A program made the position numbers and the translations under genes. A stretch of DNA of 64,000 nt from Bremia lactucae (Eukaryota > Oomycota > Peronosporomycetes > Peronosporales > Peronosporaceae): assembly GCF_004359215.1 (NCBI RefSeq), contig NC_090616.1, positions 530,066 to 594,065 of the forward strand, read 5' to 3'. Positions 17,676 to 61,987 of the stretch are shown one piece after another. Below the pieces are notes generated by a model, which saw only the letters and a program-made list of their open reading frames with translations, was not told where the DNA came from and made no database searches. The first letter of the stretch is position 1; the number at the start of each line of letters is the position of its first letter.

Positions 17676-18550
17676 CAAAAAGAATATGCTGACCGAAATG
17701 GTCGCAAAAATAATGAACGCTTTAGAGTGGGTGAAAATGTACTATTAAGTACTGCTGCCCTACCTAAAATGCAATTTCTGTTCAATCTGGAGGTACTACG
17801 AAGTTTTTGCGGCGTTTCATTGGGCTCTTTACGGTGGTAGTAAAAGTTGAAGACCTAAATTATAGGCTCATTCTTCCTCGTATATGAAGTTGCACCCCGT
17901 ATTTTACGTGGGTCGTCTGAAACGGTTGTAGACCCAAATGAGGTCACATACCCCCATCAGTCTAAGGGGACCGATGGTGTCGCCGACTGTGAGTCGAGCG
18001 TCGTTCGGGTCAGGGGGACGGAGAAGGCGAAAAACTTTCAGCTGATCGACTCCTCCCACCACGAAAAGGACTCGGTGAACGAGGGACATCACGCAAGTAA
18101 CGCCGATCCCAGGATATTTTTTTCTGTAAGGTCCAAGCGAGTTTTCAGGCGTTCATAACACTGACGAGCCTTCGCTCGGACATCACAAAGATCCAAGGTC
18201 TGTCGCAAGACGTGACCCTCGAGATCGACAATACGTCGTTCGGCAGCGCTTAACGCCTGCGACTGAACGGACGAAGGTATGGCAGCCGCGAGTAGGTGAG
18301 CGAATTCGCCACTCCTATCGAGCGCCGCCTGCACTGATGGATGCGGGTGGGAATCAACGCTTCCATATTGAAAGGTTGCTTGCCCACCACTCCGTGAGGG
18401 AAAGGTTTCAGATCCTCATCCAATGGAAAGGTTACCCGAAGAATTTTGACTCTTGGAAACCAAAATGATTCCCCACGTCTTGATGCGCCCGGCTTGGTGG
18501 CTACCTATGAAAAGGAGCACCAGCTGAGCCTCTTCGCTGGTCTCAAATAG
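17676..18550 (+). pseudogene. A1 integrase tail, linker and chromodomain
   Basis: The integrase C-terminal part is frayed (about 17690-17940). The linker is readable at 17930-18330. The chromodomain starts at ~18335 ('MDAGGNQRFHIERLLAHHS', 'RFQILIQWKGYPKNFDSW'), the usual targeting module at the end of chromovirus pol. The start of the linker-chromodomain stretch is overlapped by an open antisense frame. Confidence 0.75.
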
Positions 18551-24479: not shown

Positions 24480-25800
24480 GGCTTGAAAGTGATGATATTA
24501 AAACTGGATTCTCACTGGTATTGTCGTGATTGCAAAGATGCAACCCTCGTATGTGAGCTGCGTTCAACAAGGAAACGTTGGCCACCGTAGGAATCCACTT
24601 ATGATTGTGGTGGAGAAGGAAAAATTAGATCTGACCTATGATTCGGATTTGAGTTGAAGATCGTCAAACACGACCACTTCCTCCATGTATTGGAGGAGGG
24701 TCTTGGTTATAAGCGCAGCAAGCGTCACTCGTTGGAACAGACGGTGCAGACTCACCGTATCGAACGGTTGGATGACCGTTCGAAAAGTGCGTACTCAATG
24801 TTGGAGTACGAACGGAAGTATGACGCTTTTTGTGACGAGCTGTCGTCAGCTCATCGCGATTTCGAGGAACTTCAGTTCGGCATGAGAATCTCCAGTCTCA
24901 ACATGAGAGTCTAGTTCGTGATCACAAGAATCGCTTTGGTTTTTTTTGGAAGGGGTAGTCAGATCCGTCCGCGGAAGAAGCCGCGTAGTGAGGGTACGGG
25001 CGGAGCCGACCAATGTAAAGCGTAGGTACGTTCGCATCCTCGCGAGGATGCGCAAGAAACCGCGTACTGAGGGTACGGGCGGAGCCGACCAACGAAAAGC
25101 GTAGGATACGTTCGCATCCTTCGTGACAATTCTACCGTGTACGCATTGCCTCTGCGATGCAGTACACGGAATTGCCTAATGAACATGGGTAGAAGTTTAC
25201 TCCTACCACATTAGTGACTACATGCTTAGGTAAGTCTACCGTATACAGTAGAACTTGATCATTAATGTTAAATAAAAGAACATTTGCTCTTCCATGTTTG
25301 TCTGCGTTCCGTTTCTGCCGGTCAACTGCATTAGCAAAGGAATCCTGTACGAAACGTACTAATGATTCTCGAGCCAGCAGAAATTCCTCTGCTGACTGAT
25401 TTGATTTGTCTTTTTCAGTGCGCCTTGTGCGATCTTTCTCTTCTTCAACGAGGGATATCTTGCTGGAACTATTTATTATTCTGGAAACAATTGTGTCATC
25501 ACTATTGCTGAGTTTCTCTCTTTCGATATCATTGCTTCGACATCGACATCATTCGCGCCGTCGGTAAGTTCGACGCGTAAAAAGCATGATCCCGAGATAG
25601 TTTTGCTCGTGCGAGCCCACCCCCTTAAATTAGAGTCTCTCTTGTTGGGTGGGTATGCGTTTTAGACGTATGCACCGAATTGTTGATGTCGAATTCGACC
25701 ATCGGTTAAACCTCGCCCTAATTCGGATACGATTGGACGCAACCTCGAAGAAAAATCTCTCGAGGACGCGATGAATGCGTTCTGTCTGACCATCTATCTC
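24480..25800 (-). pseudogene. Chromovirus family B fragment: integrase C-terminus to chromodomain
   Basis: In minus orientation: remains of the integrase tail (25800-25200, 'SFANAVDRQKRNADKHGRAN'), the SH3-like GPF-region ('RVLHRRGNAYTVELSRRMR', ~25170-25100) partly duplicated at 25020-24950, a linker, and a degenerate chromodomain start ('GGQRFLVER', ~24590). It faces the second B fragment head-to-head near 25805. Decayed in several places. Confidence 0.65.
24654..24914 (+). CDS. Antisense helix-rich open frame in family B fragment
   Basis: 86 codons open on the strand opposite pol, exactly opposite the integrase-chromodomain linker. Text 'KRHSLEQTVQTHRIERLDDR', 'SKSAYSMLEYERKYDAFCDE', 'LSSAHRDFEEL' is amphipathic and coiled-coil-like. 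The same antisense segment is recognisable in the other B fragment (28220-28080, minus), with one deletion and one nonsense change. In that alignment most substitutions fall at third positions of this frame. Function unknown. Confidence 0.45.
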   Translation: MKIVKHDHFLHVLEEGLGYKRSKRHSLEQTVQTHRIERLDDRSKSAYSMLEYERKYDAFCDELSSAHRDFEELQFGMRISSLNMRV

Positions 25801-25809
25801 CGTTTAATC

Positions 25810-28600
25810 AGTAGTTGACATACCACTTCTTCGCAGCATCGTCGGTAAACACGGCGTGCGCCCTGAACCCGAAAATATCAAGGCAATTACTGACTTGTCA
25901 GTTCCGGCCGATGTGAAGGACTTGGAAAGTTCCTTGGGCTAGCGGTGTACTTGCACAAGTAGCCACGCAATTGTGCCGAGATGACAGTACATCTCTCTCG
26001 TCTCTCTGATTGGCAGCGTTTCTTTGAAGGTATCGAGCAAAGCTTTATATAATCGCCCATCTTGGTGATTGCAGATCAAGACAGACCATTCCATGTCGTC
26101 TGTGACACCAGCCCTTTTGCAATCGGCTGTGCGTTAGTGCAATACGATATAGACGGCGCGGAGCGCGTCACCTGTTACCAATTGCGTCAGCTGCAACTAG
26201 CTGAACGCAATTACCCAGCGCATGACAAGGAACTTCTGTCATGAAAAATGCACTGGCTAATTAAGGGTCTATCTCCTCAGAGAAAGAGCGTTCATCGTAT
26301 ATACGGACCATGCGTCATTACGCACGACCGGAAACACCCCACACCTTTCGCAAAGAATGGCGTGGTGGCTATCCTTCTTTGCGAAGTATAATTTCTCAGT
26401 AGAATGTAACCCGGGACGACTTAATGTCGCCGCTGATGCGTTATCACGCCAACCCGATTTCGAGTCGGCTGCGCACTCCAACAGTGGACTGTTGCAACAT
26501 ACAATATAAGTGTTCCGTCGTAAACTTTGTTGGATGACATAAGGAAAACTTACACGAAAATAAAGACCTTCTGCTTTGAAAGAATCATCTGATGAATCCA
26601 TTCAAAAAATCTGTTAATGATTTACCGTCTTTATATTGATCGTCATCAGATAAATACACAACACGCAACGGCTTACAGTACTACACAGCCGTTGCCGGCG
26701 ATAATCCATGTGTCGTCGTCCCAACTCACAATAATTTGCGTTTGCGCATCATGTATGAGTGTCGCCATGCACGAACAAGTGGGCATCGTGGATGTGGGAA
26801 AACCTATTCCACAGTAAGTCGCGACTTTTACTGGCCCCGCCAGTATCAGTTCATCCGCAAGTACATTCGTGCTCGCGAGTGTGTCAACGGGTGAAGCCTA
26901 GCCCTTCATTCCGTGCACCTCTCCAACCTCTACCACTATCGGCAGAATGTTAGCAGTCCGTATCTATGGACTTCGGCTTCGGATTTCCCGAAAAGGCGAT
27001 CACAAAAACAGCGGATTCCTTGTTTTTGTAGACAGATTCAGCAAAATGGTACATCATGCTGCAGTACCAGAGTCAATCACGGCTCCGGGCTGTGTTTTTT
27101 ATCGACACGGTATTCAGACTAAATGTTTACCCCGTGAATCGGTCTCCGATAGAGATTCACGGTTCACGGCGAAACTTAGGCGAACCGTGTTCCGATCTCT
27201 CGGAACACGGCTGACAATGTCAATTTCTGATCATCCGTAGACAGATGGACGGACGGAACGCGTCAATCGCGTCCTCGAAAAAATACTCCGAGGTTACATC
27301 CATCGTATCCGAATTGGAGCGAGTTTTACCGATGGTTAAATTCGCCATCAACAATTCGGAGCATGCTTTTACAACGCATACACCGTTCTTCGTGAATGGC
27401 TTACGCCATCCACGCATACCCACCTAATATGAGGGATTCTCTAGTTTAAGGAGGTGGGGTGGACTCGCACGAGCAAAACCAACTTTGGATCATGCTCATC
27501 ACGCGTCGAGCTTACCAATGACCCGAATGATGCGAAATTGAAGCAATCGTCATCGAAGAAGATAATGATCTCATGGCAGTGCGCACAAAGCGGACTGGAA
27601 AAGACAAAACAAATGAGTCGGCATAGGAATTTCTGCTGGCTCGAGAATCAGAAGTCCGTTTCTTACAGGATTCCATTGCTAGCGCAGTGGACCGGCAGCA
27701 ACGGAACGCAGACAAACATAGAAGAGCATATATTCTTATAATCAAAATTAATGATCTAGTACTACTGTCTACGGTAAACCCACCTAAGCGTGTAGTCACT
27801 AACATGGGCAGTAGTAAACTACTACCCAAGTTCATTGGTCCATTCCGTGTACTGCATCGCAGAGGCAGTCCATACACGATAAAATTGCCACGAAGTATGC
27901 GAATATATGCTACGTTTAACGTTGGTCGGCTCCACCCGTACCATCAGTGCGCGGTTTCTACCGCGGACGGACCTGACCACCTTTTTCAAAAATCCCTAAA
28001 CAATTTTGTGATCACGAATCAGATTTTCATGCTGTTTCTATAGATTCTCACGTCGGGTATAAAGACTGTCGAAACCGCGATGAGCTGACGACAGTTTGTC
28101 ACGAAGAGCGTAATACTTCCGTTCTTACTTCAACATCGAATACGCACTCTTCGAACGGTCTTCTAAGCGTCGATATAGTGAGCCTGCACCGTCTGCTCCA
28201 ACGAGTGACGTTTACCGCGCTCGTGATTAAAATCTTCTCTAATACATGGATGAATTGGTCGAGTTTGTCGATCTTTGACCGGATCCGACGCACAGGTCGG
28301 ATCTAATTTTTCCTCCTCTGCCACAACCATTGGTGGTTCTCACGGTGATCAACGTTTCCTTGTCGAATGTAATCTAAACCATTGTGATGTGAAGAGGCAG
28401 CGAACAAGTTATCTTGTTCGCTGGCGCGGTTATCCACCTTCGCATAACACAGCAGGGCACCTCGTTCCCAGCTGGTTGATGACGTTGAGGGCCTCGTCCG
28501 TCAGTATGACGAGACCCATATCCAGCAGGGCACCTCGTTCCCAGCTGGTTGATGACGTTGAGGGCCTCGTCCGTCAGTAAGACGAGACCCATATCCGATG
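25810..28600 (+). pseudogene. Chromovirus family B pol: RT end, RNase H, integrase, chromodomain (broken)
   Basis: Starts inside RT ('GKHGVRPEPENIKAITDLS', ~25848). RNase H at 26060-26480 ('HVVCDTSPFAIGCALVQYD', 'FIVYTDHASL', 'DALSRQPDF'). Integrase at 26700-27430 ('FLVFVDRFSKMVHHAAVPES', 'VSDRDSRFTAKLRR', 'MSISDHP'). Integrase C-terminal part at 27687-28000 ('KFIGPFRVLHRRGSPYTIKL'). Chromodomain at 28335-28580 ('GDQRFLVECNLNHCDVKRQR', 'SYLVRWRGYPPSHNT'). Numerous frameshifts and stops. gag, PR and most RT are absent here. Confidence 0.8.
28451..28596 (+). repeat. 73-bp tandem duplication in the B chromodomain
   Basis: AGCAGGGCACCTCGTTCCCA starts at 28451 and again at 28524. The unit of 73 bp encodes the C-terminal chromodomain helix ('SQLVDDVEGLVRQ'). 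Since 73 is not a multiple of three, the duplication itself shifts the frame. Confidence 0.85.
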
Positions 28601-28649
28601 GATCAGAAGGTCTATCAAAAAACACGCGCCCCTGGCGCATCTAAATTGA

Positions 28650-29590
28650 TTGCAAAACGTCAATCGGATCGCGCATCTCGATAGAGATGCGAGCCTCGTC
28701 AAGGCGAAGAAGGGAATAAACATCCCCTTTTACTCGTGTCGTGTTGTCAACACAACACGGACAGGAATCACCCCACGCAATGCATGGAAGTCCTGCCTCA
28801 CGAGACAACCGATGGAATTTAGACCTTGCACCGGTTGGAGTTCGTTTATCAAACTCAAAGCGAATCGCGTTAAGTCTTTGAAGCCAGGCTTCGTGTCCAG
28901 TGTCTTTGACATGCGAATAAACGCGTTCCAGGCTTGCATCAACGAGCTTTAATTTCGCTTGTTGCTACCAGTATACCATCGATGCTTAAGAAAAGCATCG
29001 AGATAGAAATGTTTTTCAGCGCGAAAATCTCGCGCTGGGTTCAAGGCCATGTAGCTTTGTCGCAATAAATTAGTGATATTGATTTTGAGGAGTAGTCTCT
29101 CCAGAGAAGCTACTAGCTAGCCGTTCGGGCAAAAGCCACGGCTTTTTCTCAAGGGATGACGAGAGATTTCATTGTCTGCACTCCCCTGAGTGGTATACAC
29201 TGAAGCAATGGTACCAAAAAAACTTTTATTACGATGGCTTACGCTATCGTCATCACCACGCACAGAAATAAATACGGGTGACGGCACGGGAGATGGGGCT
29301 GGCGATGAGGAGCCATCCTCATCGTCGGAACGGAATATGCTATGGCGAATGCTACTAGCACGACTACCCGATGGAGCCCCCTCGTTTGAAGGCTCATAGA
29401 CCGCCGCCTGACGAAGTGCAGGCGACTCTTTCACTTTCCCCGTGTCGGCCATTTCGTCCGACTCGCATTCATAGTCGACCACCAAAGAAGAGTCGCGCTC
29501 ACGTGGTGACTCACTAGGTGCACTTGCAACGTTTTGTGTTGCAAGAGAAGATGATACTTCGGCAGACGAAATGTCTGCCGCGAGATACAA
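28650..29590 (-). pseudogene. Antisense open region of family B (candidate antisense gene)
   Basis: One frame on the strand opposite pol, from an ATG at 29590 to about 28650 (over 300 codons), interrupted only by three stop codons (first ending at 29117, then near 28945 and 28732). Text: 'SSLVVDYECESDEMADTGKV', 'SSPAPSPVPSPVFISVRGDD', 'FRAEKHFYLDAFLKHRWYTG', 'MQAWNAFIRMSKTLDTKPGF'. It occupies the same place (between chromodomain and 3' LTR) as the antisense region of family A and shares an (I/V)VDY-x(2,3)-ES-like motif followed by Ser/Pro/Asp-rich text. Not a known family to me. Confidence 0.5.
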
Positions 29591-29770
29591 TAGTGCGTCG
29601 CCGCGGCTGCATATACCGCAGCCGAAGACGCCGCACTATTCGCACACCGCATGAACTTGTTAACCATGCGATAGAATTGAAAAAGATGGTTCTGACCAAT
29701 CCACATCGTTTTTACTCAAGTGGTCTTGTAGTGAACACTCTATACAATGACATTTAGAGTGATTGTCGTT

Positions 29771-30534
29771 TAAAGGAGGGGTAATGTAACGGAGTGTATC
29801 GTTACATAAAATTAACACTTATAAGGTTGTTAGTTTACATATTATCTGAAAGGTAGATAATATATGAGAATATTACTTTACAAAGTAATATCCGGGAAGC
29901 TTATCCATTGGTAGATAAAGGCCATTATATCTACTTGCTCCGCGGTGCAGTCAGGACTGGACGCGCGCAAAGAGAGAGACAGATAAGACTTTATTATGTG
30001 TTGTGTATTACTCTATTATTTAGCTAGTATTAAATAGATAGAAACAGAAAAACTTAATCATATTAAGGACAATTTACTTTTAATCCTCTTCAAAAGCAAG
30101 TGTTATAAAAAGAGTCTTTGAAAGTTAACACTATAAGGTTGTTAGTTAACATATTATCTGAAAGGTAGATTATATATGAGAATATTTCTTTACATAGTAG
30201 TATTCGGGAAGCTTATCCATTGGTAGATATAGGCCATTGTATCTACCTTCTCCGCGGCCCAATCAGGGCTGGACGCGCGCAAAGAGAGAGACAAATAAGA
30301 CTTTATTATAAGTTGTGTATTACTGTATCATTTAGTTAGTATTAAATAGATAGAAACAGAAAAACTTAATCATATTAAGGACAGTTTACTTTTAACCCTC
30401 TTTAAAGCAAGTGTTATAAAAGTTTTTCTCTGCATGTAAAAGTGTACGTGAAGTGACGTGAGGTACCATTCGCACTGAAATAGTGAGGAGTGGACTTGTA
30501 CTAAAGCAGTACAAGTCGGTAGTGCCCCGTTACA
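29771..30534 (+). repeat. Polypurine tract and 3' LTR of family B, internally duplicated
   Basis: PPT TAAAGGAGGGG at 29771-29781. LTR 29785-30534, starting TGTAACGG and ending CCGTTACA. About 320 bp appear twice in tandem (second copy from ~30127, 'TTAACACTATAAGGTTGTTAG'). Perfect hairpins occur at 29839-29863 (9-bp arms), 29870-29891 (10-bp arms, 2-nt loop) and 30493-30517 (9-bp arms). Confidence 0.8.
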
Positions 30535-43724: not shown

Positions 43725-44121
43725 TACTAAGTGCTACCAGGTGTAACGGGGCACTGCTGCTTCAGTGCGAGTGGTGCTTCACGTCACTAATACGTGCAGA
43801 GAAAGACTCTCTTTGTAACACTTGCTTTAGAGAGTGGTTGAAAGTAAACTCTATTTAATATAAATAAGTTCTTCTAATTCTATCTATTTAATACTAACTT
43901 AATTATAAACTAATACAAAACATGTAATAAAGCATGATAAATCTATCTCTTTGCGCGCGTCCAGTGCTGACTGGTCCGCGGAGCAAGTAGATTTAATGGC
44001 CTATATCTACTAATGGATATCACAATGTAAAGTAATATTCTCAAAATATTATCTACCTCTTAAAAATGTATGAATTAACAACCTTAAATTGTCAATCTCA
44101 TGTAACGTACACCCCGTTACA
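43725..44121 (-). repeat. Family B LTR and primer-binding site, minus orientation (S1)
   Basis: LTR 43742-44121 with TGTAACGG...CCGTTACA ends. Read on the minus strand it matches the start of the LTR at 29785. The primer-binding site TGGTAGCACTTAG is at ~43728-43739, two bases from the LTR end. Confidence 0.75.
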
Positions 44122-46145: not shown

Positions 46146-46855
46146 CTAAGAAATCATAGGCGCTATTGTACCCCTGCTTCTTCTGACAACGCTACTTCTG
46201 CTAGTCCATTTGAGACAAGCGAAGAGATTTGAACTGGTGCTTCTACTTTCATAGGCAGCCACCAAGCCGAGCACATCAATACGTAGGGTATCGATCGGTT
46301 CCCAAGAGTCAAAACTCTTCCGGTATCCTTTCCATTGGACGAGGATCTGATACCGTTGCCTCATGGAGCGGTGGGCAAGCATCCTTCCAACAAGGAAGCG
46401 TTGATTTCCACTTGCATCCATTAGTGCAGGCGGGCCCGATAGGAGTGGCGATCTCGCCCAACTACTCGCGGCTGCCTTACCTTCGTCCGTTAAGTCACCG
46501 GCGTTAAGCGCTGCTGAACAACGTATTGCGGATCTCGAGGGCCAAGTCTCACGACTGACCTCGGATCTCGTTGATGTCCGAGCGAAGGCTCGTCAGGGTT
46601 ATGAACTCCTGAAGACTCGCTTGGACCTCTTTTAAAGGATAATGCTGAGGGATCCGCGTTACTCGCGTGATGTATCCCGCTCTCCAAATCCTGTTCGTGG
46701 TGGGAGGAGTCGGCCCGATAGTTTTTCACCTTCACCGTCCTTCTCATTCGAACGACGCTCGACTCACAGTCGGCATCACCATCGGTCTCCTTAGACGGAT
46801 GGGGATATGTGACCTTATTTGGGTCTACATACCGTTTCAGACGACCCATGTACAA
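46146..46855 (-). pseudogene. A2 linker and chromodomain
   Basis: Linker frame 46855-46490 ('RLKRYVDPNKVTYPHPSKE', 'ADCESSVVRMRRTVKVKNYR'), then after a stop/frameshift the chromodomain 46421-46230 ('DASGNQRFLVGRMLAHRSMR', 'YQILVQWKGYRKSFDSWEPI'). The aromatic cage region is partly kept (Trp in 'VQWKGY', 'SWEP'). Confidence 0.75.
46441..46636 (+). pseudogene. Antisense helix-rich segment of A2
   Basis: Opposite the integrase-chromodomain linker: 'RSGDLAQLLAAALPSSVKSP', 'ALSAAEQRIADLEGQVSRLT', 'DVRAKARQGYELLKTRLDL', ending at a TAA. It aligns codon for codon with A1 18310-18120 (minus) without indels. By hand count ~5, 8 and 12 differences fall at first, second and third antisense codon positions. 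Confidence 0.5.
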
Positions 46856-59748: not shown

Positions 59749-60129
59749 TGTAACGGGGCACTGCTGCTTCAGTGCGAGTGGTGCTTCACGTCACTAATAT
59801 GTGCAGAGAAAGACTCTCTTTGTAACACTTGCTTTAGAGAGTGGTTAAAAGTAAACTCTATTTAATATAAATAAGTTCTTCTAATTCTATCTATTTAATA
59901 CTAACTTAATTAAAAACTAATACAAAACATGTAATAAAGCATGCTAAATCTATCTCTTTGCGCGCGTCCAGTGCTGACTGGTCCGCGGAGCAAGTAGATT
60001 TAATGGCCTATATCTGCTAATGGATATCACAATGTAAAGTAATATTCTCAAAATATTATCTACCTCTTAAAAAATGTATGAATTAACAACCTTAAATTGT
60101 CAATCTCATGTAACGTACACCCCGTTACA
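59749..60129 (-). repeat. Family B LTR, minus orientation (S2)
   Basis: 381 bp, TGTAACGG...CCGTTACA, near-identical to 43742-44121. Primer-binding site for the minus strand lies immediately left. Confidence 0.75.
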
Positions 60130-60899: not shown

Positions 60900-61987
60900 A
60901 CCTGCATCTCTGCGTTTGTACGTGAGGATGAGTCTCAATATTGATTGGTCTCATTTTCCCCATCTCTCCGAACATCATCGGGAGGTGGCAGGGCACAAGG
61001 CGCAGGATCTTGGTGAACAAGCCCTGGCCAGGCTCCTGGGTAGTCCTCTGGAGCAACGTTGCTCAGTTGATGCAGGTTGTGGCATTCGTGCTCGGACAGC
61101 GGAGAGCAGCGTCCGAGGCACAGAGCCATGCTGCGGCGGAGTCAGTCAATCAGACTCAGGATGAGCTAAAGCATGAGCAGGCTTGGAGAAGGCTCTCAAC
61201 ATGACTGTTGAGATGAATTCTGCACGGCCGCATCAGACGAGGCCAATCCGAATGGACCCGCCCAAGTTCGATGGAACTGCAGCGCACACAATTGTCCACT
61301 GGCTTTTATCCGTGGAACAATGCGGTGTCGTGCAGCTCATCGAGGACGACAGCCGGATGGCGTCGGACGCAATGTCGCACCTGCGCGGTAAGGCCTTAGA
61401 GTGAGCTTACTCGGCGTTTATGGCGGATACAAAGGCGTTTCATTCATGGGCGATCTTTAAGAAAAAGATTCGCGCCATGTACCAGCCGCCGAACAACGAA
61501 GTGTTGCTTCAGGCGCGCTTCTTTGGAGCGCGACAGGCGAAGCGATCTCTGCAAGATTATGTGCATGAGATGCGCTCGCTGTCGGCGTACACTACCGTAG
61601 GTCCGATTCCGGAGCACATTAAGGTGTCCACGTTTATGAACGGACTACGGCATGACCCATTGCGGCAGGCCCTTTTTAGAAAGGAGCCGTCGACGATGGA
61701 AGAGGCAATCCAAATAGCTCTCGTTGAGGAGCAATCCTTCAACAGTGCCTCGGCAAGAGCTTGGTATAAGCCGTCGGCGAGAGGACAGATGCCACTCCCA
61801 TGGAGTTGGGCAAAGTAGACGTTGTCTGTTACAAATGCGGGCTCGCTGCTATGCCAGGGTCCCTGCTGGGGCAAAGATGCCCAGCAAGAGGACTCCCTTC
61901 CCAAAGGGCGATGGCAAGAACCAGCGCGCGAGACACATGAGTTCTGCATCGACCGCTGAGGGGTCGGGAAATACAGGAGTGCAGTAG
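60900..61987 (+). pseudogene. A3 gag
   Basis: 'NIDWSHFPHLSEHHREVAGH', 'ARPHQTRPIRMDPPKFDGTA', 'RMASDAMSHLRGKALE' then an in-frame TGA at ~61402, 'MADTKAFHSWAIFKKKIRAM', 'YQPPNNEVLLQARFFGARQA', 'KRSLQDYVHEMRSLSAYTTV'. The knuckle region around 61810-61850 has lost bases ('VCYKCGLAAMPG'-like frames). The tail 'KMPSKRTPFPKGDGKNQRAR' is as in A1. Confidence 0.78.

Follow-up and report, generated by a model that had tools for sequence, protein, structure and literature searches.

Antisense genes that overlap other genes are few in eukaryotic retroelements, and those proposed are disputed. Among the antisense products of retroelements, HBZ of HTLV-1 has a layout with an acidic N-terminus and a C-terminal helix. 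The HBZ gene lies antisense by the 3′ LTR, and in plant Gypsy elements antisense ORFs have been described between pol and the 3′ LTR, namely gene23 of Grande and those of RIRE2 and Retand; antisense transcription and a nuclear product have been reported for Grande, and the Retand ORFs usually carry TRP28 (PF04195) (PMC7264820, PMC11963269). In HIV-1, purifying selection on the ASP frame opposite env has been inferred by OLGenie (PMC7531306, PMC8156140, PMC8781085). In oomycetes, Chronos is a Gypsy element with a chromodomain (PMC5348765), marked by an acquired RNase H of plant/archaeal type, and Gypsy elements make up 58.6% of the contig sequence of Bremia lactucae, whose published assembly has 115 Mb, 24 Mb of which are gaps (PMC6570648). 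The word "antisense" is absent from the main text of both of these papers, and no antisense overlap with the end of pol in oomycete elements was found among the titles and abstract starts listed by searches of open-access PMC papers.

The window analyzed here is a stretch of 64,000 nucleotides of B. lactucae (NC_090616.1, positions 530,066 to 594,065). It contains, at 24642..24914 on the + strand, a fragment of an antisense coil, and the best explanation of the whole, to which we give a probability of roughly 0.84, is that an oomycete Ty3/Gypsy-type chromodomain retrotransposon carries a real protein gene on its antisense strand, with this fragment as the C-terminal end. We show here that the antisense frame is conserved and selected, that its C-terminal helix overlaps the pol linker between integrase and chromodomain, and that constraint alternates between this frame and pol. 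It appears that one stretch of DNA encodes protein on both of its strands. Like the plant Gypsy ORFs, the gene is antisense to gag-pol and near the 3′ LTR, occurs in many copies and is mostly without known relatives; unlike those ORFs, described between pol and the 3′ LTR, it runs through the chromodomain and the linker, and its host is an oomycete. The word "overlap" is absent from the text of PMC7264820 on the plant ORFs. In the antisense proteins scanned, there was no Pfam match to TRP28 (PF04195), which sets them apart from Retand, nor to bZIP, which sets them apart from HBZ. The gene resembles HBZ in lying antisense by the 3′ LTR and in having an acidic N-terminus and a C-terminal helix, but in Bremia the basic tail of the protein comes after the coil. 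It shares with HIV-1 ASP an antisense frame that overlaps a retroelement gene and is under purifying selection by an OLGenie-type estimate; however, ASP is in the sas12 relation opposite env, whereas the Bremia gene is in the sas11 relation opposite pol, with much of the gene outside any overlap. The element itself is, like Chronos, an oomycete Gypsy element with a chromodomain. Plant Gypsy elements and HTLV provide precedents for an antisense gene beside the 3′ LTR; for the overlap with the end of pol in oomycetes, none was found in the searches of titles and abstract starts.

In the main copy, the decayed 3′ half of pol lies at 26053..28678 (+) and comprises RNase H, integrase, SH3, linker, chromodomain and a C-terminal tail. 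Pfam matches above cut-off were obtained for RNase H (PF17919/PF17917), the integrase zinc-binding domain (PF17921), SH3 (PF24626, in the ORF 27627-28043) and the chromodomain (PF00385, in the ORF 28254-28580), and the integrase core (PF00665) gave a weak match below its cut-off. RNase H, integrase, SH3 and chromodomain occur in the expected order, and from these domains the element is classified as a Ty3/Gypsy-type chromodomain retrotransposon; gag matches present in the genome were not linked to this family. The integrase-chromodomain linker on the pol strand, 28044..28253 (+), is poorly conserved among database relatives and is predicted to be disordered in the less-decayed relative L082. 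A polypurine tract and 3′ LTR occupy at least 29774..30421 (+), with the junction AGGAGGGGTAA followed by TGTAACGG at 29774-29785 (the latter starting at 29785) and a similar junction at nine further loci. Within the 3′ LTR, a segment of about 303 bases is directly duplicated (29808-30110 and 30121-30421, 91% identical). By eye, a stretch of about 60 bases of the pol tail is present twice in tandem at 28460-28580 of the window copy.

The fragment at 24642-24914 (+) belongs to a decayed inverted copy whose pol is on the − strand (homology 25842-24518). It is a stop-to-stop ORF of 90 codons, in which 24654-24914 reads 86 codons and then a stop; its translation contains HSLEQTVQ, DDRSKSAYSML, ERKY and ELSSAHR. 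A sequence-only reading of the window had reported the same antisense peptide here and at 28080-28220 (−). The peptide can be recognized in both places, but in the second it is decayed and divided between two frames, with HSLEQTVQ in one, DRSKSAYSML, ERKY and KLSSAHR in the other, and a stop between SML and ERKY. The frame relation given in that reading is correct: the third codon position of the sense frame is paired with the second of the antisense frame, the second with the third, and the first with the first (sas11 in OLGenie). A change at a sense wobble site is a mid-codon change in the antisense frame and vice versa, and the two hypotheses, constraint on the sense frame or on the antisense frame, thus predict opposite patterns. 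The hand count of that reading, about 7, 2 and 11 differing sites at the first, second and third antisense positions, was closely reproduced by script, which gives 8, 1 and 11 (of 47, 46 and 48 sites) over 28080-28220. Across the entire 24654-24914 the two fragments differ at 19, 15 and 22 of 87, 86 and 86 sites, and the pairwise phase signal is weaker beyond the shorter stretch. Two decayed fragments are by themselves insufficient for the claim, which is carried by larger alignments.

For these alignments, 78 copies (L001-L078) were collected by linker DNA similarity, 40 (L079-L118) by antisense-protein similarity, and 14 (L142-L155), out of at least 150 found, by similarity to the integrase/SH3 protein, which ends before the overlap. 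Copies with low coverage were removed, in some sets also those with frameshifts or stops; near-duplicates (98-98.5% or more identical to a kept copy) were removed before most counts, the integrase/SH3 set excepted, and stretches less than 60% identical to the reference were masked in the antisense-gene, second-family and integrase/SH3 analyses. Selection was estimated with an OLGenie-style procedure written for this analysis (method after PMC7531306). Given that 19 of the 20 copies with both frames open and 29 of the 46 copies without frameshift had been picked by antisense similarity, the sets with the strongest signal are biased. The fairest set is the one chosen by integrase/SH3, in which any bias would favor sense constraint. 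Since its copies were picked by a protein segment upstream of the overlap, ascertainment bias is removed from the main result. Two of its copies with fewer than 100 aligned linker bases (L143, L145) were omitted from the estimate, leaving 12.

In these 12 copies the linker has an antisense dN/dS of 0.56 [0.42-0.76] and a sense dN/dS of 1.02 [0.73-1.42], with dNS/dSN of 1.82 [1.27-2.66]; without CpG sites the values are 0.51, 1.08 and 2.12. The proposal that the antisense frame is the constrained one in the linker is thereby supported. Sense third positions are the least variable rather than the most (703/878/479 pairwise differences at sense positions 1/2/3), and the aligned linkers of the 14 copies hold 10 sense stops and 2 antisense stops. 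This is the opposite of the refuting pattern, with most variation at sense third positions and early stops in the antisense frame. An overlapping-gene estimate on many copies, as the sequence-only reading had suggested, places the antisense ratio below 1 in all linker sets; dNN/dNS, for which values below 1 indicate antisense purifying selection, is 0.56 in the integrase/SH3 set and 0.42, 0.44 and 0.59 in the others. These others are the 20 copies with both frames open (sense 1.02 [0.69-1.57], antisense 0.42 [0.30-0.58]; without CpG 1.67 and 0.46), the 46 copies without frameshift (sense 0.79 [0.59-1.05], antisense 0.44 [0.34-0.57]; without CpG 1.00 and 0.45) and 57 DNA-chosen copies (sense 0.77 [0.61-1.01], antisense 0.59 [0.49-0.73]; without CpG 0.97 and 0.59). 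Antisense wobble sites are the fastest in the linker and sense wobble sites are slower, with parsimony changes at sense positions 1/2/3 of 233/337/252 in the 46 copies, 79/132/71 in the 20 and 446/502/387 in the 57.

The antisense constraint of the linker is present in every set, and the DNA-chosen sets may retain some sense constraint. The antisense signal is weaker in these sets: dNS/dSN is 1.30 [0.99-1.73] in the 57 copies, rising to 1.63 [1.15-2.33] without CpG, and 1.23 [0.87-1.73] in the 17 DNA-chosen copies among the 46 without frameshift (sense 0.72 [0.53-0.97], antisense 0.58 [0.45-0.76]). With L052 as reference, third positions of the coil did not vary significantly more than the others (p 0.12 and 0.73). 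Stops per copy are nearly equal in the 78 DNA-chosen linkers (0.82 sense, 0.76 antisense); the sense frame is stop-free in 35 of these, the antisense frame in 39 and both frames in 21. Among the 40 antisense-chosen linkers the corresponding counts are 31, 38 and 30. In the reference linker, a stop can arise in one step by 53 routes in the antisense frame and by 38 in the sense frame. Thirteen of the 78 DNA-chosen copies (L061, L062, L064, L065, L067-L070, L072, L073, L076-L078) have a sense ORF with a common end point, and in L076 the sense frame shifts ahead of the chromodomain, with the antisense coil remaining open. This subfamily may have spread without a readable chromodomain.

The neighboring segments differ from the linker, which the sequence-only reading had not described. 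In the proline segment next to the linker, and to a weaker degree in the chromodomain, constraint is on the sense side. In 20 copies the proline segment gives 0.35 for sense and 1.46 for antisense, the order being reversed relative to the linker, and its parsimony changes at sense positions 1/2/3 are 78/40/88 (46 copies). The chromodomain leans the same way (sense 0.44, antisense 0.62; without CpG 0.47 and 0.80). Such switching of constraint between strands in adjacent segments serves as an internal control. In the pol tail (nt 666-738 of the sense-aligned L082), 20 less-decayed and mostly antisense-chosen copies have an antisense ratio of 0.24 [0.13-0.48] with more change at antisense wobble sites, and the antisense gene may be constrained opposite the pol tail too; in the DNA-chosen set there was no antisense wobble excess in the tail after the chromodomain.

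What the earlier description missed is that the antisense gene is longer: it reaches to the 3′ LTR, and the fragment makes up no more than its C-terminal part. In the main copy this gene can be followed on the − strand in three overlapping pieces. The decayed C-terminal end, with the end of the coil and the basic tail, lies at 27913..28169, opposite the start of the linker and the end of SH3 (P0016 matches 28169-27981 and 28008-27913). The central domain, the stretch opposite the pol tail and chromodomain, and the coil occupy 28068..29150, with indels and stops (residues 154-498 of the L052 antisense protein). The acidic and Ser-rich N-terminal part and the start of the central domain are found at 28871..29707, between pol and the 3′ LTR (L052 residues 3-253 at 29602-28871; L121 residues 1-249 at 29707-28958). 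Many copies carry, between pol and 3′ LTR, an antisense ORF of the plant aORF-3R kind, and a genome search with the central domain gave at least 150 matches from 5,584 first-look candidates. The antisense frame is open for 500 codons in L052, from the edge of the locus to a stop inside the coil, for 400 uninterrupted codons in L039, beginning in the central domain and ending at the shared stop, and for 367 and 170 codons in one frame in L049, with a single stop between. The frame begins some 110-130 nt inside the 3′ LTR edge, at a Met whose context is shared between copies, so that the whole gene would have about 560 codons; no copy examined is open end to end from this Met to the stop. The start codon is putative, and introns are probably absent. 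Since L039 is read without a break for 400 codons, a splice model was considered but not retained. The stop codon at the shared site is kept in 101 of 118 copies, for which sense conservation at that site could be an alternative cause. The C-terminus reads, by eye, IRPRKKPR...ADQRKT, which looks like a putative nuclear localization signal.

In the central domain, which has no pol opposite, variation at antisense positions 1/2/3 is 0.148/0.139/0.192, with none of 5,000 permutations as extreme, and pN/pS is 0.54 [0.47-0.63] (46 copies). The acidic part has a pN/pS of 0.72 [0.59-0.89] (24 copies), and the part opposite the pol tail and chromodomain, at 0.84 [0.66-1.11] (38 copies), has no clear antisense constraint. 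In all three regions the copies are decayed, which pushes the ratios towards 1. The reference for these ratios was L049, L052 probably having a local compensated frameshift; for the acidic part, p was 0.02 with L049 as reference, and with L052 there was no significant third-position excess (p 0.28 and 0.31).

For the antisense protein of L082 (231 residues, 18 sequences), AlphaFold2 predicts a single long helix of 107 residues (101-207, pLDDT 88-98 in ten-residue blocks) and a short N-terminal helix (2-14), with pLDDT below 50 over residues 18-81 and 87-97. In the model of the sense protein (326 residues, 20 sequences) the linker, residues 105-226, is below 50, and the chromodomain blocks at 241-300 reach 77-90. 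The antisense helix is thus predicted to face a disordered sense linker, and its sequence character, together with the predicted length, makes it a putative coiled coil. With the antisense protein as query, 22 database proteins were found at E<=0.01, one of them named Peronospora destructor, and with a linker-centered sense query 3; this asymmetry is only suggestive, as the length limits of the candidates differ. A longer sense query gave 191 matches at E<=1e-5, and among the 120 matches listed are Peronospora matthiolae, P. effusa and Hyaloperonospora arabidopsidis. Over the coil segment the 22 antisense proteins are 56-95% identical; 20 database sense proteins are 9-56% identical to L082 in the linker and 46-92% in the chromodomain part, the two lists being unmatched by species.

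In these 20 sense proteins we asked whether residues that differ would still permit the antisense residue. The target frame had a mean z of 3.5, against 1.2, -0.9, 1.4 and -0.1 for four control frames, which are a better comparison than the shuffle null, as the latter models homology incompletely. Sixteen of the 20 had z of at least 2.6, including all seven named from other species (3.0-5.4), and four (P0043, P0051, P0052, P0066) had no antisense signal, with z below 2. In P0114 and P0066 one control frame outscores the target frame. The chromodomain control is mostly flat, with z of 3.1 in P0043 and about 2 in a few others.

The age of the variants bears on the explanations that compete with a selected antisense gene. 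Variants seen once are mostly post-insertion decay, and those in at least 10% of copies arose during the spread of the family. In the linkers of 87 copies, sense positions 2 and 3 hold 89 and 88 private variants and 40 and 14 shared variants (Fisher p 0.003); in the proline segment and chromodomain the shared variants are reversed, at 9 and 21. The DNA-chosen set alone points in the same direction in the linker without reaching significance (private 95 v 90, shared 36 v 21, p 0.13). Private variants of the proline segment and chromodomain (L082 nt 405-666) are more numerous at position 2 than at 3 (82 v 59, 87 copies), unlike those of the linker.

An antisense protein that was functional only in an ancestor, or a segment captured in reverse from a host coiled-coil gene, so that present elements carry mere remains, is the strongest of the competing explanations and still an unlikely one. 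Consistent with it, Pfam, PHROGs and PDB sequence searches with the antisense proteins gave no match over cut-off, and a PDB profile search gave weak short matches only (the best, a ribosome hibernation factor, at E 0.024). However, little-decayed copies and the variants shared by copies of a single genome both carry the bias, which indicates that selection acted while the subfamilies were spreading. Two scans of viral contigs and one of genome contigs gave no relative.

Antisense ORFs opposite genes are common. A relaxed, disordered linker could by chance be free of stops on the other strand, its sense codon make-up yielding a helix-like antisense translation, and the sense linker dN/dS of about 0.7-1.0 does suggest near-free drift. 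We nevertheless consider a chance frame very improbable. Relaxed sense selection predicts even rates, but antisense wobble sites are the fastest even in copies chosen by the sense protein, and the excess lies in the shared variants, the private ones being even. The coil is kept in the 22 database antisense proteins, and the ORF extends into DNA without a sense gene, where its central domain is constrained. Least probable of all is a mutation bias, by CpG decay or second-position base composition, that mimics the phase signal: the copies are decayed, the reference linker is C/A-rich at second and T-rich at third positions, and the private excess at position 2 in the proline and chromodomain stretch would fit, but exclusion of CpG strengthens dNS/dSN (2.44 to 3.64 in the 20 copies, 1.30 to 1.63 in the 57, 1.82 to 2.12 in the 12), and the linker excess is absent from private variants, present in shared ones and reversed in the shared variants of the flank.

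As for the antisense gene as a working unit, the sequence shows an ORF that starts inside the 3′ LTR edge, crosses the space between pol and the 3′ LTR, passes over the pol tail and chromodomain and ends opposite the integrase SH3; purifying selection acts on its central domain and C-terminal helix. The linker is where this frame is more constrained than pol, which there amounts to little beyond a flexible tether. We propose that an antisense promoter located in the 3′ LTR or close to it would drive transcription; an oomycete promoter motif was looked for on the antisense strand at the LTR and not found. The product would have an acidic N-terminus, a Cys-containing central domain, a long, probably dimerizing helix and a basic NLS-like tail, and may act as a nuclear accessory factor on the transcription, RNA or integration complex of the element. 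The overlap would be tolerated because structured parts of one protein lie opposite disordered parts of the other. Variation in the linker that is currently taken for loose evolution of pol may instead be evolution of the antisense protein. With an internal control, many copies in one genome and database relatives named from other downy mildews, the reality and role of the gene are directly testable. Given the large Gypsy share of the Bremia genome, an unrecognized Gypsy gene could matter for genome growth.

A second family of chromodomain elements occurs in the window at 16.8-18.5 kb (+) and 46.2-48.2 kb (−), in both cases with an antisense coil opposite the integrase-chromodomain linker (18092..18340 on the − strand, with pol on +; 46405..46632 on the + strand, coordinates by hand, with pol on −). 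The frame relation, checked for the first element, is that of the main family. From 1,978 candidates 150 were scored, and 20 copies, chosen by antisense similarity, were retrieved, many of them with an antisense protein that ends in an RS-rich basic tail. Together with the two window copies they have 117/158/103 linker changes (p 0.0015), and the antisense-chosen copies give an antisense ratio of 0.54 [0.42-0.69] and a sense ratio of 0.77 [0.59-1.07] (0.69 and 1.17 without CpG). There was no reversal on the chromodomain side (sense 0.58, antisense 0.63). The coils of the two families have no detectable similarity (hhalign probability 1.5%) and are not shown to be homologous, so that a common origin of the arrangement would be argued from position and frame only. 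The odds are about even, in our judgment, that an old antisense gene, with expression from the 3′ LTR, is common to the chromodomain retrotransposons of downy mildews and encodes a long-helix nuclear protein needed for their life cycle, that the two strands divide structure and disorder between them at little cost, and that at least two families, with coils lacking recognizable similarity, keep this arrangement.

Elsewhere in the window, 61372-61653 (+) matches Retrotrans_gag (PF03732), with one internal TGA. LTR-like matches of about 80-82% to the LTR of the main family lie at 43777-44121 (−) and 59784-60129 (−), and the blocks in which they sit, at about 37-45 kb and 53-61 kb, have composition profiles that are nearly identical, which suggests a large duplication.
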